A stretch of DNA of 45,060 nt from Melioribacter sp. Lineage in GTDB: Bacteria > Bacteroidota > Ignavibacteria > Ignavibacteriales > Melioribacteraceae. The stretch is from the NCBI GenBank assembly GCA_012026935.1, contig VEPI01000028.1:44841-89900 (forward strand), read 5' to 3'. Made by a program: the position numbers and the translations under genes. How positions within the stretch are numbered: position 1 is the first letter of the stretch; each line of letters begins with the position of its first letter. The notes below the pieces were generated by a model. The model worked only from the letters and a program-made list of their open reading frames with translations, was not told the DNA's origin and searched no databases. This document shows positions 4,419 to 33,022 of the stretch, in pieces.

Positions 4419-5564
4419 TTAATGCGGCAACACTTTTGAAATTCCAATCCCCGGATTTTCGTTTAGTGTTATTTTACCATCAATAACTTTCGTCCCTTCA
4501 AAAGGATCATTCTTTATAAGAAGATTACCATCAAGATCCGCCCAATGAACTTCTGGAGCTAATTGAGATGCTGCAGAAATTGCACAAGATGTTTCCGTCA
4601 TACAGCCCAACATAACTTTCATCCCGAGAGATTTAGCCAATGTTAACATTTTATATGCTTCTCTTAACCCGGTGCATTTCATCAATTTAATATTAATCCC
4701 GGAATAAACTCCGTGAGCTTTAACTACATCCGGAATTCTTTGAACTGATTCATCTCCCATTATTGGAAGCGGGCTTTTCTCTGTCAGCCATGCCATATCA
4801 TCAACCATTTCTTTTGGCATTGGTTGTTCAACATAGATTACATTTTTTTCTTTTAACCAATTAATCATATCCAGTGCAAAGAATTTATCTTTCCAGCCTT
4901 GGTTAACATCAACAGTAATTGGTTTGCTTGTTACAGAGCGGATTGTTTCAATCATTTCTTTATCAGTTTCACGACCGAGTTTAACTTTCAAAATTTTATA
5001 TTCTTCCGCCTCTTTTACTTTTTGTTTAACAACTTCGCTTGTATCTATACCGATTGTAAATGACGTGTAAGGTGTTTTATCTTTGTCGAATCCCCATATT
5101 TTATGCCACGGTTTCCCAATTAATTTCCCAACAAGATCATGAAGAGCAATATCTACAGAAGCTTTTGCCGCCGGGTTAAGTTTATCAACATTGTCAACAT
5201 ATTCTAAAATGTTTTCCATCTCATACGGATCTTTGAATTGTGAGAGATCTACTTTTGATAAAAATTTTGTTGCTGTTTCATGAGACTCGCCTAAGTAGGG
5301 AGGCATTGAAGCTTCTCCGTATCCGGTTATTCCTTCGTATTCAATTTTTGTCAACACTACTGGTGTTGTTGTCCTGGAACTGGTTGCTAAAGTAAAAACA
5401 TGTTTTAATTCCAGTGTGTAAGGTTTAAATGTTAGTTTCATGTTCGAATTCTTTTTTATGATACTGATATTTTTAGAAAATACATTTGTATTTAATCCGC
5501 CGGTTAATATTGTTCCGCCGATTAACGCAGAATTGATAATAAATTTTCTACGGCTTTGTTTCAT
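4419..5564 (-). CDS. Dipeptide (L-Ala-D/L-Glu) epimerase with Tat-like signal, enolase superfamily
   Basis: Enolase-superfamily protein of 381 residues. The second half holds the muconate-lactonizing-type active site: catalytic Lys pair in KVKLG (Lys193, Lys195), metal ligands in VDVNQGW (Asp219), YVEQP (Glu246) and GDESVQ (Asp271), and the opposing Lys in NIKLMK (Lys293). The DLDGNLLIKNDPF segment (343-355) is typical of dipeptide epimerases, which convert L-Ala-D-Glu from murein to L-Ala-L-Glu. The N-terminus begins MKQSRRKFI followed by a hydrophobic stretch, a good twin-arginine signal, so the enzyme probably acts in the periplasm. Its ATG overlaps the stop of the NlpC/P60 gene by one base (TAATG) with GGAG just upstream, implying translational coupling. 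This pairing matches ykfB-ykfC of Bacillus subtilis. It is the last gene of the minus-strand operon. Confidence 0.9.
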   Translation of the reverse strand: MKQSRRKFIINSALIGGTILTGGLNTNVFSKNISIIKKNSNMKLTFKPYTLELKHVFTLATSSRTTTPVVLTKIEYEGITGYGEASMPPYLGESHETATKFLSKVDLSQFKDPYEMENILEYVDNVDKLNPAAKASVDIALHDLVGKLIGKPWHKIWGFDKDKTPYTSFTIGIDTSEVVKQKVKEAEEYKILKVKLGRETDKEMIETIRSVTSKPITVDVNQGWKDKFFALDMINWLKEKNVIYVEQPMPKEMVDDMAWLTEKSPLPIMGDESVQRIPDVVKAHGVYSGINIKLMKCTGLREAYKMLTLAKSLGMKVMLGCMTETSCAISAASQLAPEVHWADLDGNLLIKNDPFEGTKVIDGKITLNENPGIGISKVLPH

Positions 5565-6760
5565 TACATTTCTCCAAGGTAGAATTTATTTTTCTTTATT
5601 GAGGAGATTCCGTTTTTATCAATTGAATTTAGAATTCTTTTTGCCCGAATGAAATGGGTCAAACGAAACTCACTGAAATCCGCTGCATTTTTATCAAGAG
5701 AATTTATTTTTACCATTCCCGAATCATGAATAAATCTTAAATCACCGATATAAATTCCAACGTGTGTAACTCTTTCCTTCGTTGTATCGGTTGCATGGGA
5801 ACCAAAAAAAAGTAAATCACCGGGATGTAAATTTTCAAATCCATTTTTTGTATCAACCAAGGTACCGGTATTAACTTGCTGGGAAGCATCCCTTGAAAGG
5901 ACTATTCCATTTAAAAAATAAACTGTTTTCGTAAAACCGCTGCAGTCCATTCCCTTAATTGAAGTGCCGCCCCACAAATATGGAATTCCCATAAATAGTT
6001 TCGCCGTTGATACAATATCTTCTCCTGCCGGATTTCTTTTTTCTAACCATGAATTGAATAATTCACAGTTTGATTTTTCAACGTACGCAATTCTATTATC
6101 AGGATATCTTACCTTTAAAAAATTATTATCCTCGCCAATAACCGATAATAAATCTCCGGCAACTAAATCTGAAACACGTTGAGATAATATGTCCGGCTGC
6201 GAAAATGAGAATCCAAATTCTTTGGTGAAGATAATTTTTTCTGATTTCATCCAATCATAAAACCGTGATTTTGTCATTCGAACTATTCCTGATTCGCTAA
6301 TCCAAGCGATGTAATTATCGGGCGTTTGAACTAAATAATATTCCGGTGCTTTTTTAAAAATCTTAATCGGTGTTCCTAGAAGCGCTTGTGTCGCTAATTC
6401 GGCTCTATCATTGGGATTCGATCTGATACTTTCTACCGAAATATTAACTACTCCATATATTTTATCGCCGAGATCTTTTTCCGGTAATAAATGGATTTCG
6501 TCGGTAAAATTCAGATTAAGTTTCTTTAGTTTATTTAATAATTCTTGTTTTGCTTCCGGAATATTTGTCTCTCCGGAAAGAGTAATAGTGTTTGTGCTTT
6601 CAGTTGTGGTTATTGTAAAAATAGCCTCCCTAGTATCCGGGGCATACTGATTTTTAATTTCTTCTATAACTCTCGTTGCGACATTCATGCTTACTTCCTG
6701 TGCGTGTAAATAAACACTTGATATAAAAAAATATAAAAAAGTTAGAATTGTTGTTTTCAT
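5564..6760 (-). CDS. Secreted NlpC/P60 gamma-D-glutamyl-diamino acid endopeptidase (YkfC-like)
   Basis: 398 residues with a signal peptide (about 1-20, ending YLHAQ). After a small N-terminal domain (about 22-110) there are two SH3-like segments (about 115-165 and 190-230), and residues 245-380 form an NlpC/P60 cysteine peptidase: Cys273 in GMDCSGF, His333 in VTHVGIY and His345 in FIHDSG form the expected Cys-His-His set. Proteins with SH3 domains ahead of NlpC/P60 cut between gamma-D-Glu and diaminopimelate in free muropeptides with an N-terminal L-Ala, giving L-Ala-D-Glu. That dipeptide is the substrate of the epimerase whose start codon overlaps this stop, which supports both calls. The AmpG-like permease gene lies 54 bp upstream. 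Specificity is inferred from family and neighbours. Confidence 0.9.
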   Translation of the reverse strand: MKTTILTFLYFFISSVYLHAQEVSMNVATRVIEEIKNQYAPDTREAIFTITTTESTNTITLSGETNIPEAKQELLNKLKKLNLNFTDEIHLLPEKDLGDKIYGVVNISVESIRSNPNDRAELATQALLGTPIKIFKKAPEYYLVQTPDNYIAWISESGIVRMTKSRFYDWMKSEKIIFTKEFGFSFSQPDILSQRVSDLVAGDLLSVIGEDNNFLKVRYPDNRIAYVEKSNCELFNSWLEKRNPAGEDIVSTAKLFMGIPYLWGGTSIKGMDCSGFTKTVYFLNGIVLSRDASQQVNTGTLVDTKNGFENLHPGDLLFFGSHATDTTKERVTHVGIYIGDLRFIHDSGMVKINSLDKNAADFSEFRLTHFIRAKRILNSIDKNGISSIKKNKFYLGEM

Positions 6761-6814: not shown

Positions 6815-8086
6815 TTATGAATTAGTCTCATTATTTTCATCTTCCTCAAATGGAATGAAAAATAAAGTAGCAAGTCCGGGTATTGCCATTAATAATACAA
6901 TAATAAAAAATAATTTATATCCTACCGCTTGTTGAACATAGCCGCTAATTAATCCCGGCAGCATCATTCCCAAAGCCATGATTCCCGTTGATATAGCAAA
7001 GAAAGATGTTTTGTATTCACCTCTAGAAATATACATCAGGTAAACCATGAATGCAGTAAAGCCAAAACCATAACCAAACTGTTCAATTGCAACCAAGGGG
7101 AAAGCTAATTGTATCGGAGGCTGCGCATAAGCCATATATAAGTAAGCAAGATGCGGGACGTTTAAAGTGATTGCAAAAAACCATATACATTTTTTTAAAC
7201 CGTATTTAGAAATTACCCAACCGCCAACAATACCTCCAAGGATTAAACAAATTACTCCTACCGTTCCATAAACAATTCCAACTTCAGAAGTTGACAAACC
7301 AAGTCCTCCGACTTCGTGTTTATCAAGAAGAAAAGGTGAAGCTAATTTAACAAGCATTGCTTCTCCGAATCGGTAGAAAAGTATAAACAGAAGTATTGCC
7401 CAAATTCTTTTTTGAGAAAAGTATTGAGCAAATATTTTTACGTAGGGAGTTCTATCTTTTGAAATCCTAGGCTTATCACTTTGGGGATAGGGCAGAATAA
7501 AACGATGATAAATAAAAATTAAAAGAAAAATACATGCTGCTATGCCAAAGACTATCGTCCAGCTAACTGGAATATTTTTTAGTGATACTTCAAATTGACC
7601 GGCTACATAAACTAAAAAACCGGAACCAAATATCATTGCAATTCTGTAAAAGACCGATCTTATTCCAACAAAGAAAGCTTGATCTTCTTTGTTTAACGCT
7701 AGCAGGTAAAGACCATCAGCAGCAATATCATGAGTGGCTGAAACAAATGCACCTATTGTAAATGCAAACAATGAAACTGCGAAGTAAACGGGAAGATGTA
7801 ATGTGAATGCAATAAAGCTCAGACATCCCGCCATGAATAGCTGAGTATAGAGAATCCAATTTCTTTTTGTAGAAATATTATCCACTAACGGACCCCAAAA
7901 CATTTTAATAACCCAGGGCAGATAAAGCCAACTTGTCCAAAATGCAATTTGAGCATTATCTATACCCATTCTTTTATAACATATTACTGATACGGTATTG
8001 ATCAATATGTATGGAATGCCTTCGGCAAAATAGAGAGTTGGCACCCACGCCCAAGGATTTCTTGAAGTTCTTTTTTGAATGGGCAT
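6815..8086 (-). CDS. ampG: AmpG-like MFS muropeptide permease
   Basis: A 423-residue membrane protein with about 12 hydrophobic segments. The N-terminus carries the AmpG-family pattern: PTLYFAEGIPY, then LPWVIKMFWGPLVDN in the loop after the second helix. AmpG proteins import GlcNAc-anhydroMurNAc and its peptides across the inner membrane by proton symport; Bacteroidota homologues are associated with sugar or muropeptide uptake in salvage clusters. It sits between a sugar kinase gene (31 bp upstream) and a murein endopeptidase (54 bp downstream), which fits import of amino sugars or muropeptides. Substrate is inferred from family and context; a generic MFS sugar carrier is the alternative. 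Confidence 0.85.
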   Translation of the reverse strand: MPIQKRTSRNPWAWVPTLYFAEGIPYILINTVSVICYKRMGIDNAQIAFWTSWLYLPWVIKMFWGPLVDNISTKRNWILYTQLFMAGCLSFIAFTLHLPVYFAVSLFAFTIGAFVSATHDIAADGLYLLALNKEDQAFFVGIRSVFYRIAMIFGSGFLVYVAGQFEVSLKNIPVSWTIVFGIAACIFLLIFIYHRFILPYPQSDKPRISKDRTPYVKIFAQYFSQKRIWAILLFILFYRFGEAMLVKLASPFLLDKHEVGGLGLSTSEVGIVYGTVGVICLILGGIVGGWVISKYGLKKCIWFFAITLNVPHLAYLYMAYAQPPIQLAFPLVAIEQFGYGFGFTAFMVYLMYISRGEYKTSFFAISTGIMALGMMLPGLISGYVQQAVGYKLFFIIVLLMAIPGLATLFFIPFEEDENNETNS

Positions 8087-8116: not shown

Positions 8117-9049
8117 TTAAATAGTTTGTAAAATAGCCTTGGCCATAAACGCCGCCCCGATCTCCGGAGGGTTTTCTGCCGACACGATTTTAATATTAGA
8201 TAAATACTGTTCAACTTTCTTAATAAACATTTTTGAATAAAAATTTTCCGTTGCTATTGTTCCGCCGATCAAACATAGTCTTAAGGTTTCTTCTCCAATC
8301 ATATTATACATTGATTTGACATGAAGCAATAGTTCGTCAGATTCTTCATCCAAAATTTTCTTTGCAATTACATCTCCATTCTGTGCTGCCTCAATAACTT
8401 TGGGAGCGAATGAAGCTATATCAAAATTATTTCTATAAACTTCTGTGATTAATTGAGCCGAATCCGAAATACCGAAATCACGTCTTAGAATTTCCGTTAA
8501 AATAGTTTTCTCTCCCCGGCCGTCAAATTCTTTTGCAATTTGATTTAGCCCTCGTCTTCCTAATGTGCTGCCGCTTCCTTCATCACCAATTAATTTTCCA
8601 AATCCGCCAACGCGATATATCCGGTTGTTTTTATCCTTACCAAAAATTACAGATCCTGTCCCAGCGATTAACAATGAACCAACCCCGCCTGAAAATGCGC
8701 CTTCAAGTGCAATACGCGCGTCACTATCAACATTAAAAGAATTAAATAAATAACCTTTTGATTTAGCGTGATGAAGAAAATCATCCCGTAACTTTTGAGC
8801 ATCGCTTGGTCTTCCGGCTCCGGTTGTACCAATCAGTATTGATGCAATCTGATCCATTGAAATTTTTAGATGAGATATGGAGTCGAGAATCAATGAAAGA
8901 ATTGTTTCTGATACTATTTGTGTCCCGATCAAAAGAAAATTAGATGGCCCTCCTTGACATGTGTACAACGGGTTCAAATTAAAATCGGTTATTACACATT
9001 TCGTTTTTGTGCCGCCGCCATCTAAACCGGCTAAATATTTTTTATCCAT
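8117..9049 (-). CDS. BadF/BadG/BcrA/BcrD-family amino-sugar kinase (GlcNAc/MurNAc kinase-like)
   Basis: 310 residues with the ASKHA ATPase fold. The phosphate-1 loop is DGGGTKT (10-16); GTTGAGRP, then the DSDARIALEGAF segment with a conserved Asp and LIAGTGSV (phosphate-2) follow, and GGFGKLIGDEGSG is the typical N-acetylhexosamine-kinase signature. MurK of Clostridium acetobutylicum and N-acetylglucosamine kinases belong to this family. It probably phosphorylates the GlcNAc and/or MurNAc brought in by the neighbouring AmpG-like carrier, feeding the NagB-like/PIG-L fusion encoded on the other strand. No MurNAc-6-phosphate etherase (MurQ) is visible in the window, so MurNAc use cannot be judged. 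Soluble, with no signal peptide. Confidence 0.87.
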   Translation of the reverse strand: MDKKYLAGLDGGGTKTKCVITDFNLNPLYTCQGGPSNFLLIGTQIVSETILSLILDSISHLKISMDQIASILIGTTGAGRPSDAQKLRDDFLHHAKSKGYLFNSFNVDSDARIALEGAFSGGVGSLLIAGTGSVIFGKDKNNRIYRVGGFGKLIGDEGSGSTLGRRGLNQIAKEFDGRGEKTILTEILRRDFGISDSAQLITEVYRNNFDIASFAPKVIEAAQNGDVIAKKILDEESDELLLHVKSMYNMIGEETLRLCLIGGTIATENFYSKMFIKKVEQYLSNIKIVSAENPPEIGAAFMAKAILQTI

Positions 9050-9096: not shown

Positions 9097-11784
9097 TCAA
9101 TCTTTCATATACTTTAAATAATCAATTAATCCTTCATAAATCTTTTCTGCCATATGTTGCCGGAAATTATCATCATTAAGTTTTTCTTCATCTTCGGCAT
9201 TGGAAAGAAAAGCCTGCTCAACCAAAATTGACGGCATATCAGACATTCGGGTAACTCGGTAATTGAAAGATCCGACAACTCCGAACGGTTTAACATCCAG
9301 TTCAATTAATTTATTAAAAACTTTTTCGGCTAATTTAGCCCAAAAAGGGTTATGATAAAATGTGCATGTGCCTGACGCTCCTAAAAATTCATTTGATGGT
9401 TCGCTTGAATTTGCGTGAATGCTTAAATGAATGTTCGCATCAGAGTTTGTTACGGTATCGCGTTTTGCAGTTAGCGTCATATCTTTATCGGAATCTCTAA
9501 CCTGTAAAATTTCTGCACCCTGTTCTTTGAAAAGTGATTCAAGCATTTTACAAAGTTTCAAATTAATTTCTTTTTCCTTTAATCCCGATAAACCAACTGC
9601 GCCGATATTACTTCCACCATGCCCGGCCTCTAAAGAAATTTTAATTCCTTTTAACGGTAAATTATTTTCAACATTATATGTCGGCGGATATTTTATTCTA
9701 AAGATTAATTCTTTCCCATATGGTTTTATGTCATAACCCCAAATTTTTGATGTCTTCAAATTGATATAAATTTTATAAGTCTCTTTTGTTGTCTGCTGCC
9801 ACGTTACATTTTCAATAAATCTTAAATTATTTCTGTGAATCATCCAGGTACTGCTTGTTCTAACACCGTATAAATTAATTATAATTCTTTTCTGTTCGGG
9901 ATCGGGATAAATTTCATAAGGTACGTTTTCCAAATAAGGAATTTTAATAATATCTGCCGAAGCAGACGAATAACATGAAATAGGATTGATAAAATAACCC
10001 GGCATTACAGAACTATTTGGAAGTTCTTGTACGAATTCTCGGTTTATATATCCTTCTTCTGTGTCACTTAAATGGACTCTATAATTATCACCGAAAATTC
10101 CATTTGATTTAAGAACAACATTTTTCGGGAGTTCATTTCTTATCGGCGCACCTAATCTTATCGGCGCAAGAGTGAAAGTCAAAAGAGAATTATCTTGGGT
10201 GGTTGTTAATAATGGGAAATCCGTTTCATCTTTAACGAACAGATTACAACCGAGTACTTTCTCAATTGTAGTTTGATCTGTATTATTCTCACTTGATTTC
10301 AGAACTAACTTGATGCTATACTTTTGATTCTTAGTAAAATTTTTCAAAGGTATTTGAACTTCATAATTACTTGATCCGCTAAAATCTTTCCTTTGACATT
10401 CAAAAGAAATATTGCCGGGGGTTAATTCAACAAATCCTACTTGAGATTTTGTCCCGTTGAATGAAACCGTAAAAAAGTCTTCCGGCGTAAGAGTAATGCT
10501 TTCAGCAGGTTCAATAGAGTTATCGTTAATAGATAATTTCAGACCAATTGTTGAAGGATCTTTTTGCTGGAATAAAATACGATCTTCATAAACAGCAGTA
10601 TCACTGTTGCCGGCTATTGCTTCCGCTCTTAATTTATTCAATCCTTCTTTCAATTTTATTTTTTTAAAGAAGATACCTGTTTTATAAATTTTCACCGAAT
10701 CGTCGTTAATAAAAACCTTAGAAGGATATTTTGTTTTGCAAAGTAAATTATAAATATCGTTGCGTGTATTTTTAGCAAAAGGTCTCCTGAATTCTACCCA
10801 GTTTCCATAACGGCTTACGGTATTATCTTTGTTCAACAAATAATTGTACGGTATAGCCCAATCGCTTGTTGAAAGTTTATAATTTCTGTTACCGATTTTC
10901 AGATTAACCGTATCAGTATTCCCGGATAATATAAAATTCAGTTTCATATCTGCATCAATATTCTTAGTCCTGTTTTCGTTTAATATATCAACTTCAGTAA
11001 TGTTTTTATCTGTTACTTCCGAGAGATTAAATGAAATAAAATGTTCCGGAGATAATCGTTTCAAATATTTATTTAGAATTTTTGCATCTGCGTCAAAATT
11101 AATATCCTTGTTATAATTAATTGAGTTGTCAAATTCATCGTCAATTAGGAAATCAATTATTCCTGTCTCTAAATATTTATCAACCAACATTCTATTCGCC
11201 ACGCCAAATTTATTCGGAGTTGTTACAATCAAAAAAGGTTTTACCAAAACACTCTCTACAATTATATCTTCGAATAAATTATTATCGTCTTTTGATGAAA
11301 AATCTATTCCGTAGAAATAAAACCCGTCAAACTCGTAGTTTTTAACAAGTCTATTAAAATTATTTTTTATAGAAGCAGTTAGAGCAGGCGAAGCGGCTAA
11401 TCTGTCCAAATAGTTGAAATCAATTGCAATAAAAAATTCCAATCCATTGCTATGAGCTAGTTCACTTGCATACTTAATAATATCTTGGGATATGAACTCT
11501 GAGTTGGAAGAAGTTAACATTAATTTGGAAAAGGTAGTTGACTTAAAAATAACGGCGTCAGGATTTTGTTTTGACAACGTTAAGATTTCATTCGTAATTT
11601 TATTCTTAGTCAAGTCCGATACAATTAAATTCTCGTTCCCAAAATCTAAAACTGAGATTTTATCTTTAAAGTATTGTGAATTAATAGGTTTAGTCGCTAT
11701 CTCTTTTTTTGCTACATCAACACCCGTTGAGCATGCAGTTGCAATAATCATAATTAATGAAAGACAGCCTATGTATTTTTTCAT
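9097..11784 (-). CDS. Lipoprotein N-acetylmuramoyl-L-alanine amidase with large N-terminal region
   Basis: 895 residues. The N-terminus is a lipoprotein signal with lipobox ending ATAC (Cys18). Residues 711-895 are a complete Amidase_3 domain: zinc ligands His722 (EAGHGG), Glu739 (EKEIN) and His790 (LSIHAN), and catalytic Glu856 (LVEQAFLSN). The long N-terminal part holds a TIM-barrel-like segment (about 40-260, with FFIAIDFNYLDRL and FDGFYFYGIDF) reminiscent of GHL10-type hydrolases, then beta-rich modules including an SH3-like stretch and an AMIN-like region (about 640-700). It should release stem peptides from murein in the periplasm. GGAG lies five bases before the ATG. It follows the GHL10 lipoprotein gene by 78 bp and precedes the kinase gene by 47 bp. 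The barrel assignment is by eye and may be a non-catalytic relic. Confidence 0.88.
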   Translation of the reverse strand: MKKYIGCLSLIMIIATACSTGVDVAKKEIATKPINSQYFKDKISVLDFGNENLIVSDLTKNKITNEILTLSKQNPDAVIFKSTTFSKLMLTSSNSEFISQDIIKYASELAHSNGLEFFIAIDFNYLDRLAASPALTASIKNNFNRLVKNYEFDGFYFYGIDFSSKDDNNLFEDIIVESVLVKPFLIVTTPNKFGVANRMLVDKYLETGIIDFLIDDEFDNSINYNKDINFDADAKILNKYLKRLSPEHFISFNLSEVTDKNITEVDILNENRTKNIDADMKLNFILSGNTDTVNLKIGNRNYKLSTSDWAIPYNYLLNKDNTVSRYGNWVEFRRPFAKNTRNDIYNLLCKTKYPSKVFINDDSVKIYKTGIFFKKIKLKEGLNKLRAEAIAGNSDTAVYEDRILFQQKDPSTIGLKLSINDNSIEPAESITLTPEDFFTVSFNGTKSQVGFVELTPGNISFECQRKDFSGSSNYEVQIPLKNFTKNQKYSIKLVLKSSENNTDQTTIEKVLGCNLFVKDETDFPLLTTTQDNSLLTFTLAPIRLGAPIRNELPKNVVLKSNGIFGDNYRVHLSDTEEGYINREFVQELPNSSVMPGYFINPISCYSSASADIIKIPYLENVPYEIYPDPEQKRIIINLYGVRTSSTWMIHRNNLRFIENVTWQQTTKETYKIYINLKTSKIWGYDIKPYGKELIFRIKYPPTYNVENNLPLKGIKISLEAGHGGSNIGAVGLSGLKEKEINLKLCKMLESLFKEQGAEILQVRDSDKDMTLTAKRDTVTNSDANIHLSIHANSSEPSNEFLGASGTCTFYHNPFWAKLAEKVFNKLIELDVKPFGVVGSFNYRVTRMSDMPSILVEQAFLSNAEDEEKLNDDNFRQHMAEKIYEGLIDYLKYMKD

Positions 11785-11862: not shown

Positions 11863-13407
11863 TTATTCAATCTTACGAAAAGTTGGAATACTTTCATCAC
11901 TAATCCTATCTACAGCAGATACCGCAACTTCATTAAGAACATACTTCTTGACGATTTTTTTGTCATTATCATTTGTGGATTTAATTTCGAAAGTTAGGGG
12001 AGCTTCATATGAAAAAGTATCGCTATCTAAAATTGTGTAATCCCACCTGTTGCCGTAATTGAAGTAAATAATCCACTTAAAAACATTTTTCTTGTTTTCA
12101 TGCGACCAAGAAATTTTAATCTTATCATTTTCTTTAGCGGTGATAATTTCCGGTGATGCAAGGGGAGTCTTCTTGAACCAAGGGGTTTGAGGAACTAATG
12201 CTTGTTTTTTGTACGGCCCATTTACAATTGCATCGGATAATTCCTTGTTAGTTAGAATTGGGCCGACACTCCAGAATAAGTTGCCTGGTGAATCCGGCAG
12301 CATTCCTCTTACAATCATAATTTGATTAATCACTTCTGAATTATTTAATTCGTTATTCTCCCTATCTATATTAATACCCGGCCAGAAGTGCCTGTCTTTC
12401 AAATTCTCATTTTTCCACCATCCTAAAAGGACCGGGAAACTCTGAGGAATGGTATTTATTTTCCAATAAAGTTGTGGTGCCCAGTAATCAACCCATCCTT
12501 CATTAATCCACCGTTTTGCATCGGCATATAATTTATCATATTGATCAAATCCTTCAATTGATTCAGGGTGTTTAGGTCTCCAGATTCCAAAAGGACTTAA
12601 TCCAAATTTTACATTCGGTTTAATCTCTTTTATGCTTTTGTAAACTCTTTGAATGAAGACATTAATATTTTCTCGCCGCCAATCTGCTTTACTTAATGTA
12701 CCGCCATTGTTCAAATAATTTTTCCAGCTTTCATCATCGGGAAAATCTTCTTCATTATTATAAGAAGGGTATGGATAAAAATAATCGTCGAAATGAATTC
12801 CGTCAATGTCATATCTATTAATAATATCTACCACAACACTATTTGAGTAATCTTGAACTTCTTTTTTACTTGGATCCAGCCACCAATATCCCTCTTTAAG
12901 TTTCACAACCCAATCGGGATGTTTTTTAACAACTGAAAATTCTGTGACTTCTCCACCGGCAATATGATGAGCTCTGTAAGGATTTAACCAAACATGCAAT
13001 TCTATGCCGCGTTTATGAGCCTCATCAATCCAGAATTCCAAAGGATCATAGTATGGATCAGGCGCTTTACCTTGATTGCCTGTTAAATAGTATGACCATG
13101 GCTCGATGCTGCTTTTATAAAGAGCATCGCATTGAGGACGAACTTGGAATATAGCTGCATTGAAATTATCATTTTTAAGTTTGTCAAGAATTCCAATCAC
13201 TTCTTTTTTTTGCTCGTCAGTTGTAAGATCTTTCCTGCTAGGCCAGTTAATGTTTGCAACGGATGCAATCCAAGCTCCACGAAATTCACGTTCTACTTTA
13301 GGAATATTCGGAAATGTTTTTTCCGATCGGTCTAGTTGCAAAGTAGTACAACCTGAAATAACTATTAGAGAGACGATAACAATTTGAATAACAACTTTAG
13401 TGGTCAT
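11863..13407 (-). CDS. GHL10 (DUF187) family glycan hydrolase, lipoprotein
   Basis: 514 residues with a lipoprotein signal ending VISGC (Cys20). Residues about 40-390 are a GHL10/DUF187 TIM barrel: REFRGAWIASVANINWPS, FQVRPQCDALY, EPWSYYLTG, HVWLNPYRAHH and DGIHFDDYFYP are hallmark segments; the acidic residues of the last are likely catalytic. E. coli DigH (YddW), of this family, cuts murein glycan strands that amidases have stripped of peptides, which suits its place directly upstream of an amidase gene. A C-terminal beta domain (about 410-500) looks fibronectin-like. It is the first gene of the minus-strand operon. Upstream sequence shows no obvious Shine-Dalgarno. A relative with a T9SS module is encoded divergently at 13702. 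Confidence 0.87.
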   Translation of the reverse strand: MTTKVVIQIVIVSLIVISGCTTLQLDRSEKTFPNIPKVEREFRGAWIASVANINWPSRKDLTTDEQKKEVIGILDKLKNDNFNAAIFQVRPQCDALYKSSIEPWSYYLTGNQGKAPDPYYDPLEFWIDEAHKRGIELHVWLNPYRAHHIAGGEVTEFSVVKKHPDWVVKLKEGYWWLDPSKKEVQDYSNSVVVDIINRYDIDGIHFDDYFYPYPSYNNEEDFPDDESWKNYLNNGGTLSKADWRRENINVFIQRVYKSIKEIKPNVKFGLSPFGIWRPKHPESIEGFDQYDKLYADAKRWINEGWVDYWAPQLYWKINTIPQSFPVLLGWWKNENLKDRHFWPGINIDRENNELNNSEVINQIMIVRGMLPDSPGNLFWSVGPILTNKELSDAIVNGPYKKQALVPQTPWFKKTPLASPEIITAKENDKIKISWSHENKKNVFKWIIYFNYGNRWDYTILDSDTFSYEAPLTFEIKSTNDNDKKIVKKYVLNEVAVSAVDRISDESIPTFRKIE

Positions 13408-13701: not shown

Positions 13702-16074
13702 ATGAGAAGAACTGTCTATCTGTTTTATCTTTTATTTCTCTTGCAAACAATAACCGCTTTTGCCCAATCTACAAATCCCAAAAGAGAATTTAGAGGTGCT
13801 TGGATAGCCACAGTACAAAATATTGATTGGCCAACAAAGGGAGCTTCGACTGCTTCGCAAAAACAAGCATTAATAAATATTCTTGATCGCTTAAAGGCTG
13901 TAAACATTAATGCAGTTATGTTTCAGATCAGACCTGAATGTGATGCATTATATAATTCCACAATTGAACCATGGTCTTACTATTTAACAGGTATTCAGGG
14001 ACAAGCACCAAATCCTTTTTATGATCCATTACAATTTGCTATTGAAGAAGCTCATAAAAGAGGAATGGAATTGCATGCATGGTTTAATCCATATAGAGTT
14101 GAAAGATCTGTAGGTAATTATACAACTGCTGTAAATCACATTTCAAAAACTCATCCCGAATGGACATTTACAAAAAGTGGAGTAAAAATACTTGATCCAG
14201 GTCTTCCGCAAGTAAGAAATTATGTTGTTTCGGTAATAATGGATGTAGTAAGAAGATATGATATAGATGCAGTGCATTTTGATGATTATTTTTATCTTGA
14301 TGGTATGGGAACTGAAGATGCCGCAACTTTTGCATCATACAATCCAACCAATCTTAATTTAGCAGATTGGCGTAGAAATAATGTTAACACATTAGTAAAA
14401 ATGATTGATGATAATATTCAGTTAGTGAAACCGAATGTTAAATGGGGAATTAGTCCACGCGGTATATGGCGTCCGGGATATCCTGATTCAACAATAACAG
14501 GAAATGATAATTATAATTCTATTTATTGTGATGCCATGGCATGGTTACGCACTCAATCAATTGACTACATTAATCCGCAATTATATTGGAAATTTACCGG
14601 ACATCAAGATTATGGAAAATTAATGCCTTGGTGGGCTGACTCTGCCGGTGTTCACAATAGACATATGTATGTTGGGCATGCGGTATATAGGATTGCATCA
14701 GGAAACGAACCTTTTAATGCTGCTGAAATACCCAAACAAATAAAATTAAATCGTACAGATCAAGATTGTCAAGGAAGTGTTCTTTATAATACTAATACAA
14801 CAATAAATAATCCTCTTGGCTTTTATGATTCTCTAAAAATTTTATACAAATATCCTGCAATACCCCCTACTATGAATTGGAAAGATTTCGTAATACCAAA
14901 TCCACCATCAAATTTACGATATGATAAATTAGCTGATAACAGGGGAGACGGATTATTTTGGAACGAACCATCAGTTGCTTCAGATGGTGATGTTGCTTCC
15001 AAGTATGTAGTTTATAAGTTTGCTACTCCAACTGTTCAACCATCAGATCTTGAAAATTCCTCTAACATGAATAATATTGTAGGTACTACATATGCTGAAA
15101 TAAAAACAGAAAATGTAACACAGACAATGTATTTTGGTGTAACTGCATTAGACAAAAACAATAATGAAAGTGATCTTAGTTCAATAATTCCGGTTCAAAT
15201 TACAATTCCGTCAAGACCTATAGTGATTTCTCCAGATGATCTTGCAATCAATCAAAGAGATACTATTAAATTTGTCTGGGAAAACACAGCACACTCTAAC
15301 TATAATAGATTGCAAATTGCATCCGACCCAAATTTTAATGATCTAATTGTTAATCAAAATAACATTGTAGATACTTTTAAAACTGTAACAGGTTTCAGAG
15401 GTCTCACTACTTATTACTGGAGAATTACTGCATCAAACTTAGCTGGAGAAAGTATTACTTCTGTTGCTAGAAGTTTCACTACCGGATTTCCTATTCCCCC
15501 TCAATTATTGTTACCACTTGATCAAACATATATCTCTTCTATATCTACAAAACTTGTCTGGAAGAAATCAAATTCAGCTACAAGATATAGGCTTCAATTA
15601 GCAGAGGGTTTGTCTATCGTACCATCAAAAACAATTCTTGATACAGTAGTTACGGACACATCATTAATAGTAAACAACTTAAAAGATAAAAGCTTCTATA
15701 CATGGTCTGTAATGGCTGCAAATAATTTCGGTTCAAGTGCATTGGCATCTGTTTTCAAATTTAATACCGGTACTTCTACAAATATTATGGATGATAATAG
15801 ATCACTACCAACATCTTATGTATTGGATCAAAATTTTCCTAATCCATTTAATCCAATTACGAGAATTTCATTTTCAATACCGGAAAACGGATTTACAGTT
15901 ATTAAAATCTACAATCTACTAGGACAGCAGATTGCAGTATTAATAAATCAAGATTTGGCAGCAGGATCATATTTTACTGAATTCAATGCAGAGAAATATC
16001 CAAGTGGAATTTATATCTATGTATTACAATCGGGATCATATATTTTAAGTAAAAAAATGATGTTGATTAAATAG
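13702..16074 (+). CDS. T9SS-secreted GHL10 (DUF187) glycan hydrolase with fibronectin-like modules
   Basis: 790 residues. A signal peptide (about 1-21, ending TAFAQ) leads into a GHL10 barrel (about 28-380) that shares REFRGAWIA, FQIRPECDALY, EPWSYYLTG, AWFNPYR and DAVHFDDYFY with the divergently encoded lipoprotein. Three fibronectin type III-like modules follow (about 395-510, 515-600, 605-695), then a PNPFNP sorting module beginning LDQNFPNPFNP and ending KKMMLIK. This version should be exported to the surface or medium by the T9SS, whereas its relative stays anchored as a lipoprotein. Probable substrate is peptide-free murein glycan, by analogy with DigH; another polysaccharide is possible. 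It stands alone on the plus strand, with 239 bp to the next gene. Confidence 0.88.
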   Translation: MRRTVYLFYLLFLLQTITAFAQSTNPKREFRGAWIATVQNIDWPTKGASTASQKQALINILDRLKAVNINAVMFQIRPECDALYNSTIEPWSYYLTGIQGQAPNPFYDPLQFAIEEAHKRGMELHAWFNPYRVERSVGNYTTAVNHISKTHPEWTFTKSGVKILDPGLPQVRNYVVSVIMDVVRRYDIDAVHFDDYFYLDGMGTEDAATFASYNPTNLNLADWRRNNVNTLVKMIDDNIQLVKPNVKWGISPRGIWRPGYPDSTITGNDNYNSIYCDAMAWLRTQSIDYINPQLYWKFTGHQDYGKLMPWWADSAGVHNRHMYVGHAVYRIASGNEPFNAAEIPKQIKLNRTDQDCQGSVLYNTNTTINNPLGFYDSLKILYKYPAIPPTMNWKDFVIPNPPSNLRYDKLADNRGDGLFWNEPSVASDGDVASKYVVYKFATPTVQPSDLENSSNMNNIVGTTYAEIKTENVTQTMYFGVTALDKNNNESDLSSIIPVQITIPSRPIVISPDDLAINQRDTIKFVWENTAHSNYNRLQIASDPNFNDLIVNQNNIVDTFKTVTGFRGLTTYYWRITASNLAGESITSVARSFTTGFPIPPQLLLPLDQTYISSISTKLVWKKSNSATRYRLQLAEGLSIVPSKTILDTVVTDTSLIVNNLKDKSFYTWSVMAANNFGSSALASVFKFNTGTSTNIMDDNRSLPTSYVLDQNFPNPFNPITRISFSIPENGFTVIKIYNLLGQQIAVLINQDLAAGSYFTEFNAEKYPSGIYIYVLQSGSYILSKKMMLIK

Positions 16075-26210: not shown

Positions 26211-27671
26211 ATGGTTACAGTATTTCTCCCTTATAGTGGTTTGCTTCACAGCATTGACATAATAAATGAATTGATTAATTGTGATTTAGTTTCTAAAATT
26301 TATTTATTAGCCGGTGACGATAAATATGAGCCGCCTAATAAATGTGAAATTATTAAAGTAAACGATTTGACTAGCTCGGCCACTGTCGGTTTAATTATTA
26401 AAAATACTCAAACAAAATACGTCTTGTTATTTACTCAAGATAACAGATATCAATTTGCCCAGTTTGCTTTCGAAAGGTTTTATAATGTTATAAACAGTAC
26501 AGGTGCAGGATTAGTCTATTCCAATTATTCAATAATTAAAAATGATTCTGTAACTCGTCATCCTGTAAATGATTATCAATTAGGAAGTTTAAGAGATGAT
26601 TTTGATTTTGGTAATATGGTATTTCTAAATGCAGAATTACTGAAATCGTTTAAGAATGACAATGAATATAAATACGCCGGAATATATAATTTGCGATTGC
26701 ATCTCTCACGGCTAAGTGAGTTTCTAAGAATACCTGAATATTTATATACAACTATTGAATCCGACTCAAGGGAAAGCGGTGTTAAACAATTTGATTATGT
26801 TAATCCTAAGAACAGGGATGTCCAAATTGAAATGGAAAAAGTCGTTTCGGATCATTTAAGGAAAATTGATGCTTACCTTACCCCGAAATTTAAGTACATT
26901 GAAATTGAAAATGACACTTTCGAATATGAAGCCTCTGTAATAATCCCGGTAAGAAATAGAGTTAGTACCATTAGTGATGCTATCCATTCTGTTCTTTCAC
27001 AAAAAACTAATTTTAGATTCAACATTATTGTTGTTGATAATTATTCCGATGACGGTACAACTGAAAAAATAAAAGAATTAGCAAAAAAAGATCCCCGATT
27101 GATTCATATTATCCCCGAAAGAAAAGATTTAGGAATAGGCGGATGCTGGAATGAAGCTGTCCATAATAAATTATGCGGAAGATTTGCTATACAATTGGAC
27201 AGTGATGATGTTTATGCAAATGAGAAAACTGCCCAAATAATAGTTGATACTTTTAAGAAAGAAAAATGTGCGATGGTTATTGGTACATATAAGATGACAA
27301 ATTTTAAGCTGGAAGAAATACCTCCTGGCACAATTGATCATAGAGAATGGACCCCTGATAATGGACGAAATAATGCGCTCAGGATTAATGGACTTGGTGC
27401 ACCAAGAGCGTTTTATGCTCCTCTTCTTCGTAAATATAAAATTCCAAATGTAAGTTACGGTGAAGATTATGCCATTGGATTGATGATATCGAGAGACTAT
27501 CAAATCGGTAGAATCTACGAACCTATTTATCTTTGCAGGAGATGGGAGGGAAATTCGGATGCTGCTTTGGATATTGATAAACAAAATTATTACAATGAAT
27601 ATAAAGACAGATTAAGAACGATCGAAGTGCTAGCGCGTCAATGGAAAAATAAAAATGCAGACAAGGTTTGA
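26211..27671 (+). CDS. Two-domain family 2 glycosyltransferase
   Basis: 486 residues. The C-terminal half (about 240-470) is a GT2 GT-A domain: [27 protein letters not shown], an [10 protein letters not shown] segment with the metal-binding DSDD, and YGEDYAIG as the probable catalytic-base region. The N-terminal half (about 1-200) is a second, degenerate GT-A-like domain (LFTQDN near 80) without a clear DxD. There is no signal peptide or membrane helix, so it probably acts in the cytoplasm on a nucleotide sugar. GGAG lies 12 bases before the ATG. Its 3' end overlaps the next gene by 17 bp, giving tight coupling to a FAD/Fe-S dehydrogenase, an unusual partner for a glycosyltransferase. Acceptor and donor are unknown. 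Confidence 0.87.
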
Positions 27672-30597
27672 TAATCGAGAAAAGTATATTGATTATAATG
27701 AATTAAGAAAGAATTTTGATGGTGATATTCTATTAGATGAATTATCTAAAATTATTTATGCTACAGATGCTTCAGTTTACCGAGAAAAACCTCTAGCTGT
27801 TGTAATCCCTAAAACAAAAAATGACGTAAAGTTAATTGTAAGGTTTGCATCTGAGAATAACATTTCGATCATTCCGCGAGCAGCCGGAACTTCATTAGCG
27901 GGACAGGTGGTAGGCAACGGTATTGTTGTAGACATTTCAAAATACATGACTAAAATTCTGGAACTGAACACTGAAGAAAAATGGGTTAAAGTTCAACCCG
28001 GGGTTGTATTAGATGAACTGAATATTTATCTGAAGAGACACGGATTGTTTTTTGGTCCGGAAACGGCTTCCGGCAACAGATGTATGCTTGGCGGAATGTT
28101 GGGGAATAATTCGTGCGGTTCACATTCTATATTATATGGCTCAACCCGCGATCACGTTCTAGAAGCAAATGTAATTTTAAGCGACGGCTCGGAAGTTTGT
28201 TTCACAACTTTGAAAAAAGAAGAACTAGTTGAAAAATGCAATGGACCTTCCCTTGAAAATAAAATTTATAAAAATTTATTTGAGATATTGTCGGACAAAA
28301 AAAATCAAGAAGAATTAATTAATGAGTACCCTACTCAAGAAATAAACAGAAGAAATAACGGCTACGCAATTGATCAACTCTTGAAATGTAATGCTTTCGG
28401 AATGGGAGACGCAGATTTTAATGTTTGCAAACTGTTAGCCGGCTCAGAAGGAACATTAGCTTTCACGACAGAAATAAAATTAAACTTGGTTCCTCTTCCT
28501 CCCAAAGTTGTTGGTGTTGTTGCCATTCACATGAATTCTTTAGAAGAATCATTTAGAGCAAATCTTGTTGCATTGAAATATAAACCCGGTGCTGTTGAAT
28601 TAATTGATGGAAAGATTCTTGAGTACGCGAAAGTAAATATCGAACAAAAGAAGAATCGTTTCTTTATTAAAGGTGATCCGGCCGCTTTGGTAGTGGTCGA
28701 ATTTGCAAGAGATTCTGAAGAAGAGATAAAACAGATTGCAAATGAACTTGAAAGAGAATTGAGAGAAGGAAATTATGGTTATCACTTCCCACTATTGCTA
28801 AATGATGATGTCAATAAAGTGTGGTCTCTTAGAAAAGCCGGATTAGGATTATTAGGCAATATTCCAGGAGATAAAAGAACCGAACAATTTATTGAAGATA
28901 CTTGTGTCCGTCCGATTGACTTACCGGACTTTATGAATGAGTTTTGCCGGATATTAAAAAAGAATAATCTGGATTCAGCTTATTATGCACATCTTGGTTC
29001 AGGCGAACTTCATTTAACTCCAATGATGAATTTGAAAGATCCCTACGATGTAAAGCTATTCTATACAATGACAAAAGAAATTGCTCATCTTGTAAAAAAA
29101 TATAAGGGATCGTTAAGCGGTGAGCATGGTGACGGCAGATTAAGGGGTGAATTTATTCCCATTGTGATTGGTGAACATAATTACCAGTTGTGTAAAGAAA
29201 TAAAAAATGTTTGGGACCCGAAAAATATTTTTAATCCGGGTAAGGTTGTTGATACAGTTGCGATGAATACGAATTTGAGATTTGAAGTTGATAAGAAACC
29301 TAAAGAAATTTCTACCATTTATGATTTCTCGACAACAAAAGGAATTTTAAGAGCCGCTGAAAAATGTAATGGCTCGGCAGATTGCAGAAAATCCGATTTG
29401 ATCGGCGGAACAATGTGCCCGAGTTACAGAGCAACACGTGAAGAAAAGAATTCAACAAGGGCGCGCGCAAATACATTACGGGAACTTCTAACAAGATCTC
29501 AAAAAACAAATCCTTTTGACCATAGCGAAATTTATGAGGTTATGGATCTATGCCTTTCTTGTAAAGCATGCAAGTCGGAATGTCCGTCCGGCATTGATAT
29601 GGCGAAATTGAAAAGCGAGTTTTTGCAACATTATTACGATGCGAATGGAACACCTTTAAGAACAAAATTGATTGCGTACTTACCAAAAATTAATTCAATC
29701 ATTTCAAAATTTACCAGCATTGTAAATCTATTTCTAAAGTATAAACTGATAAATCAATTAATAGGATTTAGTCCGAAACGCTGCATCCCTTTACTATCAA
29801 AAAATACTTTCCTTAATTGGCATAAAAAAAATAAGGATAGGTATAAAAAAACAAATTATCCGAACGGAAAATTATTTTTATTCGTTGATGAGTTTACGAA
29901 TTATAATGAATCCGAACTGGGTGTAAAAACTTTTCTTCTATTTACTCGTTTGGGCTATGAAGTTGTAATCCCGAAACATTTGGAAAGCGGAAGAACATTT
30001 ATTACCAAGGGTTTATTAAGAAATGCAAAAAAAATAGCGAATGAGAATATAAGGTTGCTAAAAGATGTAATTGATCCGGAAACACCTTTAGTGGGAATTG
30101 AAGTTTCAGCAATTCTTTCTTTTAGGGACGAATACCTTGATCTTGTTGATGCTGAATTAAAAGTAGATGCCGAAAAAGTGTCGGAATCAACTTTTACGAT
30201 CGAAGAATTTCTTTCAATGGAAAACAAGAAAGGGAAAATATCTTCTTCATCTTTTACAAATGATTTCAAAAAAATTAAACTACATGGTCATTGCCAGCAA
30301 AAAGCAATAGCGTCAACAAAGGCAACAATTGATATACTTTCATTGCCGCAAAATTATGAAGTGGAAGAAATTCCATCCGGTTGCTGCGGAATGGCTGGAG
30401 CCTTTGGTTACGAAAAAGAACATTATGATCTATCAATGAAAGTTGGAGAGTTGGTTCTATTCCCTGCAGTGAGGAAGGAAAATCCCGATACGATAATTTG
30501 CGCACCCGGTACAAGCTGCAGACATCAAATTAAAGATGGTACTGAAAGAACGGCATACCATCCTATAGAAATAATTTACGATGCTCTTATAAAATAA
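27655..30597 (+). CDS. FAD/Fe-S D-2-hydroxyacid dehydrogenase (YdiJ-like)
   Basis: 980 residues. Residues about 40-260 are a PCMH-type FAD-binding domain ([35 protein letters not shown]), followed by an FAD-oxidase C domain (about 270-540, with [13 protein letters not shown]). Two ferredoxin-like clusters follow (Cys residues in [16 protein letters not shown] near 570-590 and [12 protein letters not shown] near 635-645), then a CCG-type domain (GHCQQK near 878, [10 protein letters not shown] near 909). This is the architecture and length of E. coli YdiJ and of glycolate/D-lactate dehydrogenase GlcD+GlcF fused in one chain, which oxidise D-2-hydroxyacids (D-lactate, D-2-hydroxyglutarate) and pass electrons to a carrier. 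The start overlaps the glycosyltransferase by 17 bp; the next gene begins eight bases after its stop. Substrate unknown. Confidence 0.9.
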
Positions 30598-30605
30598 TTA
30601 TTCAT

Positions 30606-31733
30606 ATGAAAAAAACTAATGATGAAAATATTAAACAACATTATTTAATGGATAGTGCACCAGGCGCAGTAACAAAAATAAACGGTAAAGAATATTCTTA
30701 CTTCGGCGGAACAAGTTATTACGAACTGCATAAAAATAAAGAAGTAATCAACTCTGCTATCAATGCATTAAAAAAATATGGGATTAATAGTTCATCTTCC
30801 CGAAATAGTTATGGTACAACACAGCTTTTGTTGGATGTGGAAAGGGAAGCATCGAAATTTTTTAATTGTGATGATGCTGTTTATTTGCCTTCCGGATTTC
30901 TAAGTGATTTAGCTGGAGTACATGCTTTATCGAGTAGAAAAATGTTTGATGTTATTTTTATAGATGAGATTTCTCATTACAGTAATGATTACGCAGCCAA
31001 GTTAAGCGGTAAACCAATTTATAAATTCTCGCACATGGATGATGTTGATCTCGAAAAAAAAATGTCCAGCAATCTTCTGCCAAGGCAACAACCATTAATA
31101 ATCACGGACGGAATATTTCCAATATTCGGTAAGATTGCACCGGTTAAGAAATATTTGAGTATCATAGAAAAGTTTAACGGAATTTTATGGGTAGATGATG
31201 CACATGCGCTTGGTATTCTTGGACCAAACGGAAGAGGAACTTATGAACATTATGGTTTAACTTCGGAAAGATTTTATTTTGGAGGAACCTTTTCGAAAGC
31301 TTTCGGAGGATTTGGCGGAATTATTCCGGGAAATAAAAAATTTATTGATGAGATTAAAAATAATCAGATACAAAACGGAGCTACACCGCCGCCTTCATCT
31401 GCTGCCGCTGCAAGTTTAACGGGATTAAAATTAGTTAAATCAAAACCGGAGTTGAGACTTAAATTGTGGAGAAATGCCAAACGATTGAAAACAGGATTAA
31501 GAAGTTTGGGTATTGATGTGGAAGATACAAATGTACCAATCGTGGCATGGGCGATGGGCAATAAATCTGAAATGCAAAAAATTCAAAAAGAGTTAATGAA
31601 AAAGAATATTGTAATACAGTACATCCAGTATATTGGTTCGGGGGATGAAGGTGCGTTAAGAATTGTTGTCTTTTCTTCACATACACCACAGCAAATTGAT
31701 AATTTAATTTATGAGCTGAAAAAGATTATCTGA
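30606..31733 (+). CDS. Alpha-oxoamine synthase-like PLP enzyme (BioF/KBL/SPT family)
   Basis: 375 residues of fold-type I PLP enzyme in the alpha-oxoamine synthase group. The Schiff-base Lys is Lys231 in GGTFSKAFGGFGG; the cofactor ring is bracketed by VDDAHALG (Asp197, His200); SSSSRNSYGTT, AVYLPSGFLSD and GALRIVVFSSHTPQQID are further family landmarks. Family members condense an amino acid with an acyl thioester with loss of CO2 (BioF, KBL, serine palmitoyltransferase, HemA). It is divergent and slightly short at the N-terminus, so its donor and acceptor cannot be read from sequence. No other biotin, haem or sphingolipid gene is present nearby, and it is flanked by a YdiJ-like dehydrogenase (eight bases upstream) and a LysA-type decarboxylase (44 bp downstream), which argues for a pathway of its own. 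Confidence 0.85.
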   Translation: MKKTNDENIKQHYLMDSAPGAVTKINGKEYSYFGGTSYYELHKNKEVINSAINALKKYGINSSSSRNSYGTTQLLLDVEREASKFFNCDDAVYLPSGFLSDLAGVHALSSRKMFDVIFIDEISHYSNDYAAKLSGKPIYKFSHMDDVDLEKKMSSNLLPRQQPLIITDGIFPIFGKIAPVKKYLSIIEKFNGILWVDDAHALGILGPNGRGTYEHYGLTSERFYFGGTFSKAFGGFGGIIPGNKKFIDEIKNNQIQNGATPPPSSAAAASLTGLKLVKSKPELRLKLWRNAKRLKTGLRSLGIDVEDTNVPIVAWAMGNKSEMQKIQKELMKKNIVIQYIQYIGSGDEGALRIVVFSSHTPQQIDNLIYELKKII

Positions 31734-31777
31734 GTATTTAGAATTACTATATACTAGTTAGGGAAAAACTGAAAGCA

Positions 31778-33022
31778 ATGGAAAATATTACAACAATTGA
31801 TAAAAATTTATTTATTAATTATGCTGAAAAATATGGTACGCCATTATATATATATGATGCGGATCTAATTGTAAAGCGGTACAAAGAACTTTATAAGTAT
31901 ATAAAGTGGCCAAAGCTAAAAATATTATATGCGATGAAAGCAAACTATAATATCGGCATTTTGAATTTGCTGAAAAATAATCAAGCCTTTCTTGATACAG
32001 TTAGCCCGGCAGAAGTGCATCTTGCATTAAAATTGGGATTCTCGAAGGAAGATATTTTATTCACAGCAAATAATATTACCGATGATGAAATGCACGAAAT
32101 TAAAAAAACCGGCGTGCTTTTTAACATTGGTTCGTTGAGCAGGTTACAAAAATTTTCTGCTGCCTATCCGGGAAGTGAAGTTTGTATTAGATTTAATCCG
32201 GATGTTTACGCGGGAGAACATAAGCATGTACAAACCGGCGGAGCAATTACAAAATTTGGTGTGTTGTTGTCAGAGGTTGATCGAATAAAAGAGATTACTA
32301 ATAAATATAATATCAAAGTTATTGGACTTCATGAACACACAGGTTCGGGGATAAGTGAGACAGATAAAATTTATAAAAGTATGACGAACTTGCTTGGAAT
32401 TGCAAATCAACAAGATTTTCCGCATTTGCAGTTTATAGATTTCGGTGGAGGGTTTAAGGTTCCTTATAAACCAACAAGTACAAGAATTGATTACGCAGGA
32501 TTTGGAGAAAAGATCAGTTCTATTTTCTCTGATTTCTGTAAACGGTATGGAAGAGATTTATATATTTATTTTGAGCCTGGAAAATATATTGTTGCTGAGT
32601 CGGGATATCTTTTAATGGAAGTGAATTCCATAAAAAATAACAGAGAAAGATTAATTGCCGGTACAAATTCCGGATTCAATCACCTTATACGACCTTTGCT
32701 TTACGATGCATATCATCAAATTGAAAACATTAGTAATCCAAAAGGTGAATTAAAAATTTATGATGTATGCGGGAATATTTGCGAGACAGGCGATTGCTTT
32801 GCAGAGCAGAGAGAATTACCGGAAATTCGTGAAGGTGATAAACTTATTATTAAAAATGCCGGCGCTTATTGTTATTCCATGGGCAGTATTTATAATTTAA
32901 GATCAATGCCCTCTGAATTATTGGTTGCCGGAGGAAAAGAGTTTTTAATTACGAAAAGACTATCAAACAAAGAATTAGCAGACTCATTAATTTCTTCCGC
33001 TAATGACGAAATTAATTTATAA
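31778..33022 (+). CDS. lysA: Diaminopimelate decarboxylase-type PLP enzyme
   Basis: 414 residues of fold-type III PLP decarboxylase. Key sites: the PLP Lys54 in YAMKANYN, HEHTGSGI, the glycine loop FGGGF, EPGKYIVAESG, CGNICETGDCF with the catalytic Cys of the partner subunit, and NAGAYCYSMGSIYN. RFNPDV and the H-x-x-x-TGG...TKFG segments agree with LysA rather than with ornithine or arginine decarboxylases. The usual EPGR of LysA is EPGK here, and the SPAEV/FTANNITDDEM segments differ from the common G-E-L and F-x-G-x-x-K forms, so a related substrate is possible. It might make lysine from meso-diaminopimelate, including diaminopimelate salvaged from murein, or serve the pathway of its three upstream neighbours. 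Last gene of the four-gene unit. Confidence 0.82.
   Translation: MENITTIDKNLFINYAEKYGTPLYIYDADLIVKRYKELYKYIKWPKLKILYAMKANYNIGILNLLKNNQAFLDTVSPAEVHLALKLGFSKEDILFTANNITDDEMHEIKKTGVLFNIGSLSRLQKFSAAYPGSEVCIRFNPDVYAGEHKHVQTGGAITKFGVLLSEVDRIKEITNKYNIKVIGLHEHTGSGISETDKIYKSMTNLLGIANQQDFPHLQFIDFGGGFKVPYKPTSTRIDYAGFGEKISSIFSDFCKRYGRDLYIYFEPGKYIVAESGYLLMEVNSIKNNRERLIAGTNSGFNHLIRPLLYDAYHQIENISNPKGELKIYDVCGNICETGDCFAEQRELPEIREGDKLIIKNAGAYCYSMGSIYNLRSMPSELLVAGGKEFLITKRLSNKELADSLISSANDEINL

Follow-up and report, generated by a model that had tools for sequence, protein, structure and literature searches.

What would a bacterium do with a glycosyltransferase, a flavoprotein dehydrogenase, an alpha-oxoamine synthase (AOS) and a diaminopimelate decarboxylase encoded one after the other? 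The question is raised by a stretch of 45,060 nucleotides from Melioribacter sp. (contig VEPI01000028.1, positions 44,841 to 89,900), here called the window. Its forward strand encodes a GT2 glycosyltransferase (26211..27671), in which PF00535 (Glycos_transf_2) matches residues 242-379 only; a YdiJ-like FAD/4Fe-4S D-2-hydroxyacid dehydrogenase (27655..30597; FAD_binding_4, FAD-oxidase_C and 4Fe-4S domains); an AOS-like pyridoxal-phosphate (PLP) enzyme of a distinct clade (30606..31733; Aminotran_1_2); and a LysA-type diaminopimelate decarboxylase of a divergent clade (31778..33022; Orn_Arg_deC_N and Orn_DAP_Arg_deC). An earlier note, made from the sequence alone, had named these four families, and domain scans bear the names out; LysA is the only one of the four proteins that passes an NCBIfam cut-off. 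The spacing that it gave (a 17-bp overlap, an 8-bp gap and a 44-bp gap) is exact for the open reading frame (ORF) starts used, the overlap between the GT2 and YdiJ-like genes being start dependent, as four of six YdiJ-like orthologues begin about 15 residues later. We propose, with a probability of roughly 0.6, that the last three genes (hereafter the trio) are the consuming end of a murein-salvage region. This reading builds on family membership, gene order, location beside murein genes, co-occurrence with MurQ within the genus, a separate AOS clade and the association of that clade with epimerase-like genes; from the sequences, we infer a shared transcript and every substrate named below.

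The trio is a genuine conserved unit. In a panel of 57 genomes, consisting of the window's own (G000) and 56 relatives (G denotes a genome and L a locus throughout), AOS orthologues, called at a minimum of 60% identity and found at 60-100%, are present in eight (G000, G002, G004, G010, G011, G022, G026 and G030). YdiJ-like orthologues (76-100% identity) occur in exactly these eight genomes, LysA orthologues (71-100%) occur in all of them, and the order YdiJ-AOS-LysA is kept in 8/8, with the G002 contig ending inside LysA, which is split over contigs. The block was also found in records of Melioribacter, Stygiobacter and other Ignavibacterial metagenome-assembled genomes. The earlier note had staked its pathway on the genes being neighbours in related genomes, and there they do adjoin.

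The GT2 gene behaves differently. Close relatives of it are present in 51 of the 57 genomes, including 43 of the 49 that lack the trio (48-64% identity), and a DUF4922 gene adjoins it, lying between GT2 and the YdiJ-like gene in five of the eight trio genomes and beside GT2 in 12 of 13 further fetched GT2 loci (12 non-trio genomes plus G010), with none in L082. Since DUF4922 is a partner of its own and GT2 is so common in relatives lacking the trio, we place GT2 outside the trio's pathway, a decision to which an older site in the window's own genome also contributed. GT2 would share the trio's transcript as a passenger, and GT2 and DUF4922 would work together in something else. The protein probably has two GT-A-like domains; the best Foldseek match of its model is K4 chondroitin polymerase, at a low TM of about 0.4. 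In the literature searched, which left out most subscription journals, DUF4922 is mentioned by just two papers, both on plants. The older site (L228, G000 contig C68) has DUF4922 with no GT2 seen, and the operon has GT2 with no DUF4922, which looks like reciprocal loss of the two partners. The second GT2-DUF4922 site of G010 (L074, 4430-8762) looks broken: GT2 is present as two ORFs, and so is DUF4922, with two opposite-strand ORFs in between.

Murein-recycling genes around the trio

The first 16 kb of the window carry a series of genes resembling those of murein recycling. A 783-aa glucosamine-6-phosphate-deaminase-like (NagB-like) protein without a Pfam match (1940..4291, + strand; NF002557, 209.9 bits, cut-off 384) is followed on the - strand by a dipeptide-epimerase-like protein related to L-Ala-D/L-Glu epimerase and DgcA (4419..5564), an NlpC/P60 peptidase with SH3 domains, YkfC-like (5564..6760), an AmpG-like MFS transporter (6815..8086; TIGR00901, 196.6 bits, cut-off 350), a BadF-family sugar kinase resembling N-acetylglucosamine (GlcNAc) kinase (8117..9049; NF046058, 122.5 bits, cut-off 370), an Amidase_3 N-acetylmuramoyl-L-alanine amidase (9097..11784) and a GHL10 glycoside hydrolase-like protein (11863..13407). 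A second GHL10 protein, with a type IX secretion system (T9SS) sorting tail, lies on the + strand (13702..16074). The epimerase-like protein scores below its equivalog cut-offs (202.8 bits against 400 for DgcA, NF042940; 139.8 against 343 for NF011708; and 133.4 against 500).

MurQ splits N-acetylmuramic acid (MurNAc) 6-phosphate into GlcNAc-6-phosphate and D-lactate. Its gene (G000:C116:41672-42544; 370.7 bits, cut-off 302) is found some 2.3 kb ahead of the window. The same layout recurs on a Stygiobacter contig from the genome of L089, where MurQ to LysA fall within about 56 kb (15 to 73 kb). The operon, MurQ and the epimerase-like gene share one contig in G000, G004, G026 and G030 (about 36-48 kb) and in that Stygiobacter; in G022, 21-30 kb separate the operon from the epimerase-like gene and MurQ is on another contig, and in G002 and G010 the genes are on different contigs. 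No MurQ was found in G011, which is 72% complete. Within the genus, MurQ is above the cut-off in 4/5 trio genomes (the miss being G011) versus 0/7 without the trio (p = 0.010 over 12 genomes; p = 0.008 over the 9 genomes that are at least 90% complete), and it is also above the cut-off in all four further trio genomes tested (L163, L101, L089 and L091). Of the 11 distinct trio loci that reach past LysA, four (L071, L072, L073 and L091) have an Amidase_2 or GH3 gene 3' of it.

Among the closest described arrangements is ykfABC of Bacillus subtilis, a set of LdcA, epimerase and NlpC/P60 genes that is reported to handle murein peptides (PMC2954226). The window has in common with this set and with the murein-peptide pathway of Escherichia coli its epimerase-like and NlpC/P60 genes, which in the window are adjacent. 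Its region differs in also having MurQ, an AOS-like enzyme, LysA and a dehydrogenase of hydroxyacids, and the orthology of its single proteins remains below the NCBIfam cut-offs.

The AOS-like protein, its clade and its neighbours

By its predicted fold and its PLP-binding residues, the third protein of the operon belongs to the alpha-oxoamine synthase superfamily, which includes BioF, KBL, serine palmitoyltransferase (SPT), ALAS and CapC. The model (pLDDT 92) is nearest to the SPT 3a2b (TM 0.90), and the best PDB match is likewise SPT, at 30% identity; the PLP lysine K231 as well as H124, D197, H200 and R352 are kept in the clade, with Lys at 352 in L111. However, no curated family claims the protein: the best match, BioF, gives 226.1 bits (cut-off 426.45), KBL and glycine C-acetyltransferase give 153.5 and 191.9 (cut-offs 493 and 460), and SPT gives 205.8 and 198.9 (cut-offs 640 and 500). 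The profile match to the sulfonolipid CapC 28eh reached 129.9 bits versus 203.8 for SPT. The tree retained 80 of 97 rows (14 duplicate loci, rows shorter than 300 residues and all but 6 close paralogues were dropped); its comparators were the BioF and Kbl of E. coli and the second AOS of the window's genome. The window protein falls in a group of 32 rows (support 94/89), to which four Planctomycetaceae rows are sister (100/98 for all 36), apart from all three comparators. On these scores and this placement, we rejected it as the genome's BioF, KBL or SPT; the phylogeny suggested in the earlier note puts the protein outside the E. coli BioF and Kbl groups.

The clade also differs from the other synthases at defined positions. 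In a comparison of 32 clade rows with 38 BioF/KBL/SPT-like rows (23 of the latter being close paralogues from relatives), position 36 is Thr in 32/32 versus Asn in 38/38 (BioF N47), position 125 is aromatic in 32/32 versus Ala in 35/38, position 172 is Pro in 30/32 versus Ser in 38/38 (BioF S179), and position 258 is Gly in 32/32 versus Phe or Tyr in 36/38. Asn47 and Ser179/Ser185 of BioF/KBL sit next to the substrate. Furthermore, the segment before the position-36 block is shorter in the clade (median 26 versus 44 residues, lengths that are rough because start codons were assigned mechanically). These changes suggest another substrate or reaction, without naming one. Gly258 is shared by 19/22 Verrucomicrobial AOS rows and is not unique to the clade, and Thr36 fails as a strict mark of epimerase pairing, since the AOS gene of the distant relative G205 combines Asn36 with Pro172 and an overlapping epimerase-like gene. 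The Verrucomicrobial proteins (L121-L145, L159 and L166) form another divergent group of AOS, in which the BioF Asn47 position is Cys in 22/22 rows; no epimerase-like or LysA gene was found near their loci.

The neighbours of the clade point towards peptides. A contig search gave a pool of 80 AOS loci, 31 in the clade and 49 outside it; 30 of the 31 came from ORF calling, and L105 was added on a second look, its membership resting on its score (487.5 bits) and not on the tree. YdiJ-like and LysA genes accompany AOS in 11 of the 31 loci, all in the window's own group. At 18 of the 20 remaining loci, assigned by record title or tree label to Bacteroidota, Aminicenantes, Acidobacteriota, Pseudomonadota, Chlorobiota and Bipolaricaulota, an epimerase-like gene is near AOS. 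It is mostly adjacent, though about 1.1 kb off in L103 and 0.4 kb in L113, and on the opposite strand in L104 and L115. The available sequence of the 49 other loci, whose flanks are of unequal length, contains no epimerase-like gene and no LysA; at three of them, a weak YdiJ-like match occurs at a distance of about 9 kb. The Fisher test on neighbours compared 30 with 40 loci, prior to the addition of 10 second-look loci, and the profile used to detect epimerases came from a cluster that itself includes the epimerases adjoining AOS genes.

The NCBIfam scan covered three of the 18 partner epimerases; the best matches were L-Ala-D/L-Glu epimerase or DgcA, and L098 alone passed a cut-off. At L098, AOS is directly preceded by a DgcN-like gene (472.9 bits, cut-off 480) and by DgcA (411.4 bits, cut-off 400), and L102 has the same two clusters. 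This recalls the DgcN-DgcA pathway of D-glutamate, although no AOS is named for that pathway in the part of its description that we consulted (PMC10845958). An NCBIfam scan of 16 proteins from the window gave no DgcN match, the genome itself being outside this search. At L106 and L110, the AOS gene also lies by NlpC/P60, a further epimerase-like gene and a gene resembling LdcA (165.7 bits, cut-off 378), the combination known from ykfABC. Serine hydrolases, an aminopeptidase and peptide-permease genes were identified by eye at several other loci of the clade; no lipid genes were noticed, most flanking genes having been judged by eye or not examined. In the distant relative G205 (L207, 323 bits), AOS overlaps the epimerase-like gene mentioned above. 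The clade is rare: of 392 genomes from the window's phylum, 8 contain the clade proper (above 560 bits), and in a sample of 398 genomes taken for G435's phylum, matches were limited to G435 and the distant G634.

The proposed route and competing explanations

In the salvage route that we propose, muropeptides would enter through the AmpG-like carrier and be taken apart by the amidase, the NlpC/P60 peptidase and the kinase. MurQ would convert MurNAc-6-phosphate into GlcNAc-6-phosphate and D-lactate, and the YdiJ-like flavo-iron-sulfur enzyme would oxidize the D-lactate to pyruvate. The epimerase would turn L-Ala-D-Glu into L-Ala-L-Glu, and LysA would decarboxylate the freed meso-diaminopimelate (meso-DAP) to L-lysine; D-lactate and meso-DAP were assigned to the dehydrogenase and to LysA because of the known chemistry of those families. 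Finally, the AOS-like enzyme would remove the alpha-hydrogen of a stem-peptide amino acid, alanine being the best guess, with either an exchange of configuration (D to L) or a condensation with acyl-CoA as the outcome. It is a tentative suggestion, possible rather than probable, that the whole clade represents a new type of PLP enzyme, working in the salvage of D-amino acids or stem peptides and no longer condensing acyl-CoA; the altered pocket and the short N-terminal segment would fit a racemase or another enzyme acting on the alpha-hydrogen of an alanine-like amino acid.

The earlier note had offered two uses for the operon, and they fared differently. Processing of an amino acid released from murein is now favoured, as the trio lies at one end of a murein region and the AOS clade keeps company with epimerase-like genes. 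The other, synthesis of an amino-ketone, amino-lipid or glycosylated product by an SPT- or CapC-like synthase, we consider very unlikely, even though the AOS fold is nearest to SPT and the PLP-holding residues are kept. GT2 has DUF4922 as a partner and is found in 43/49 relatives without the trio; the AOS neighbours elsewhere are epimerase-like genes plus peptidase and peptide-permease genes (by eye or by weak family matches); and the substrate-side Asn and Ser of KBL and BioF are changed in a protein whose N-terminus is shorter.

An ordinary role for LysA as the last step of lysine synthesis, beside chance or loosely related neighbours, is an unlikely explanation, though less so than the amino-lipid one. 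The protein passes TIGR01048 (343.5 bits, cut-off 297.9), keeps the PLP Lys, His, second Arg, Tyr and Cys-Glu of diaminopimelate decarboxylase, though with Cys, Gly and Ile/Leu substitutions around GAYG..SNYN, and is the only LysA match in the window's genome, as in G004, G010, G022 and G030. The earlier note had named a sole genomic LysA, together with an AOS inside a BioF or KBL clade, as a finding that would count against its pathway, and the sole LysA keeps plain lysine synthesis alive. The genome also has a DapA-like gene just under its cut-off (204.0 of 206.15 bits). Yet the trio order is kept in 8/8 AOS-positive genomes and in the named genomes, the protein is only 28-33% identical to the LysA-like matches of five relatives, and no LysA match at E 0.001 was obtained in any of the seven genus mates that lack the trio (G008 and G009 being 66% and 84% complete), so that within the genus the presence of this gene follows that of the trio. 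Five of these genus mates (G001, G003, G005, G006 and G007, each at least 91% complete) have a DapA-like gene and are possible lysine auxotrophs.

Also unlikely, if slightly less so, is the view that the dehydrogenase acts on D-2-hydroxyglutarate, as in E. coli, and serves serine or 2-oxoglutarate metabolism. Its best NCBIfam match is indeed YdiJ, and it is homologous to E. coli YdiJ over the whole length (30% identity), with the same His/Glu motifs and with GEHGD and CCG present. The match, however, gives 646.4 bits against a cut-off of 1350, and in the PDB ranking D-2-hydroxyglutarate dehydrogenase (70.7 bits) comes after glycolate oxidase, the best match at 124.8 bits, and D-lactate dehydrogenases (123.3 and 117.0). 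Orthologues of at least 76% identity are confined to the 8 trio genomes of the 57. A D-lactate dehydrogenase, for which the MurQ co-occurrence within the genus also speaks, is the function that we propose. The candidate resembles Dld-II of Shewanella and Desulfovibrio in having FAD_binding_4, FAD-oxidase_C, 4Fe-4S, CCG and GEHGD, a comparison with the published domain make-up and GEHGD motif of Dld-II (PMC4481167).

Several observations weigh against the salvage reading. The catalytic residues of the dehydrogenase, tried as a discriminator, fail to tell D-lactate and D-2-hydroxyglutarate apart, and the GEHGD of the YdiJ-like protein is GEHGI in the D-lactate dehydrogenases of solved structure. 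In LysA, Lys replaces the Arg of the EPGR motif in 16/16 clade members, which could mean another substrate; this Arg is kept in E. coli LysA and in the LysA-like matches of the five relatives compared. MurQ was rejected as a general partner of the trio, the association being limited to the genus: over all 57 genomes, it is present in 7/8 with the trio and in 33/49 without it (p = 0.41). Outside the window's group, MurQ is above the cut-off in 4 of the 16 genomes that have AOS genes (from 20 loci), any match at 1e-40 being found in 8; consequently, the AOS role does not require MurNAc catabolism. Epimerase-like genes are lacking near AOS in L111, whose contig ends 0.4 kb past the gene, and L116, and in the distant relative G634 (L231, 325 bits), where AOS adjoins an apparent serine hydrolase and a peptide ABC transporter. 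Most proteins of the window's murein region score under their NCBIfam cut-offs. Finally, the genomes share ancestry, so that the counts are not independent and the Fisher values err on the optimistic side.

To our knowledge, most work on murein salvage concerns a small number of model bacteria. If the salvage reading is true, one three-gene unit would use D-lactate, meso-DAP and a stem-peptide amino acid, an added salvage route, and the clade would point to an uncharacterised family of PLP enzymes found beside dipeptide epimerases in several phyla. The function of the AOS-like enzyme is directly testable on a clear set of substrates (D-Ala, L-Ala, D/L-Glu, meso-DAP and L-Ala-D-Glu). In literature searches that left out most subscription journals, we found nothing joining "dipeptide epimerase" with "8-amino-7-oxononanoate synthase", or MurQ with D-lactate dehydrogenase, muropeptide and recycling. 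No title for "alpha-oxoamine synthase" with peptidoglycan was on this subject, and the matches listed from further literature held no AOS link by title.

Signals and genes downstream of the trio

The promoter scan of the window was uninformative (40 sites versus 35.4 expected). Terminator-like sites numbered 8 versus 3.7 expected, and none was found on the + strand between 31390 and 33400. Directly 3' of LysA, on the same strand (33178-36666), lie genes for a PAS histidine kinase and a LuxR-type response regulator, which are possible regulators. Farther downstream, two large subtilases with SLH and T9SS sorting domains stand in tandem (37571-43239).

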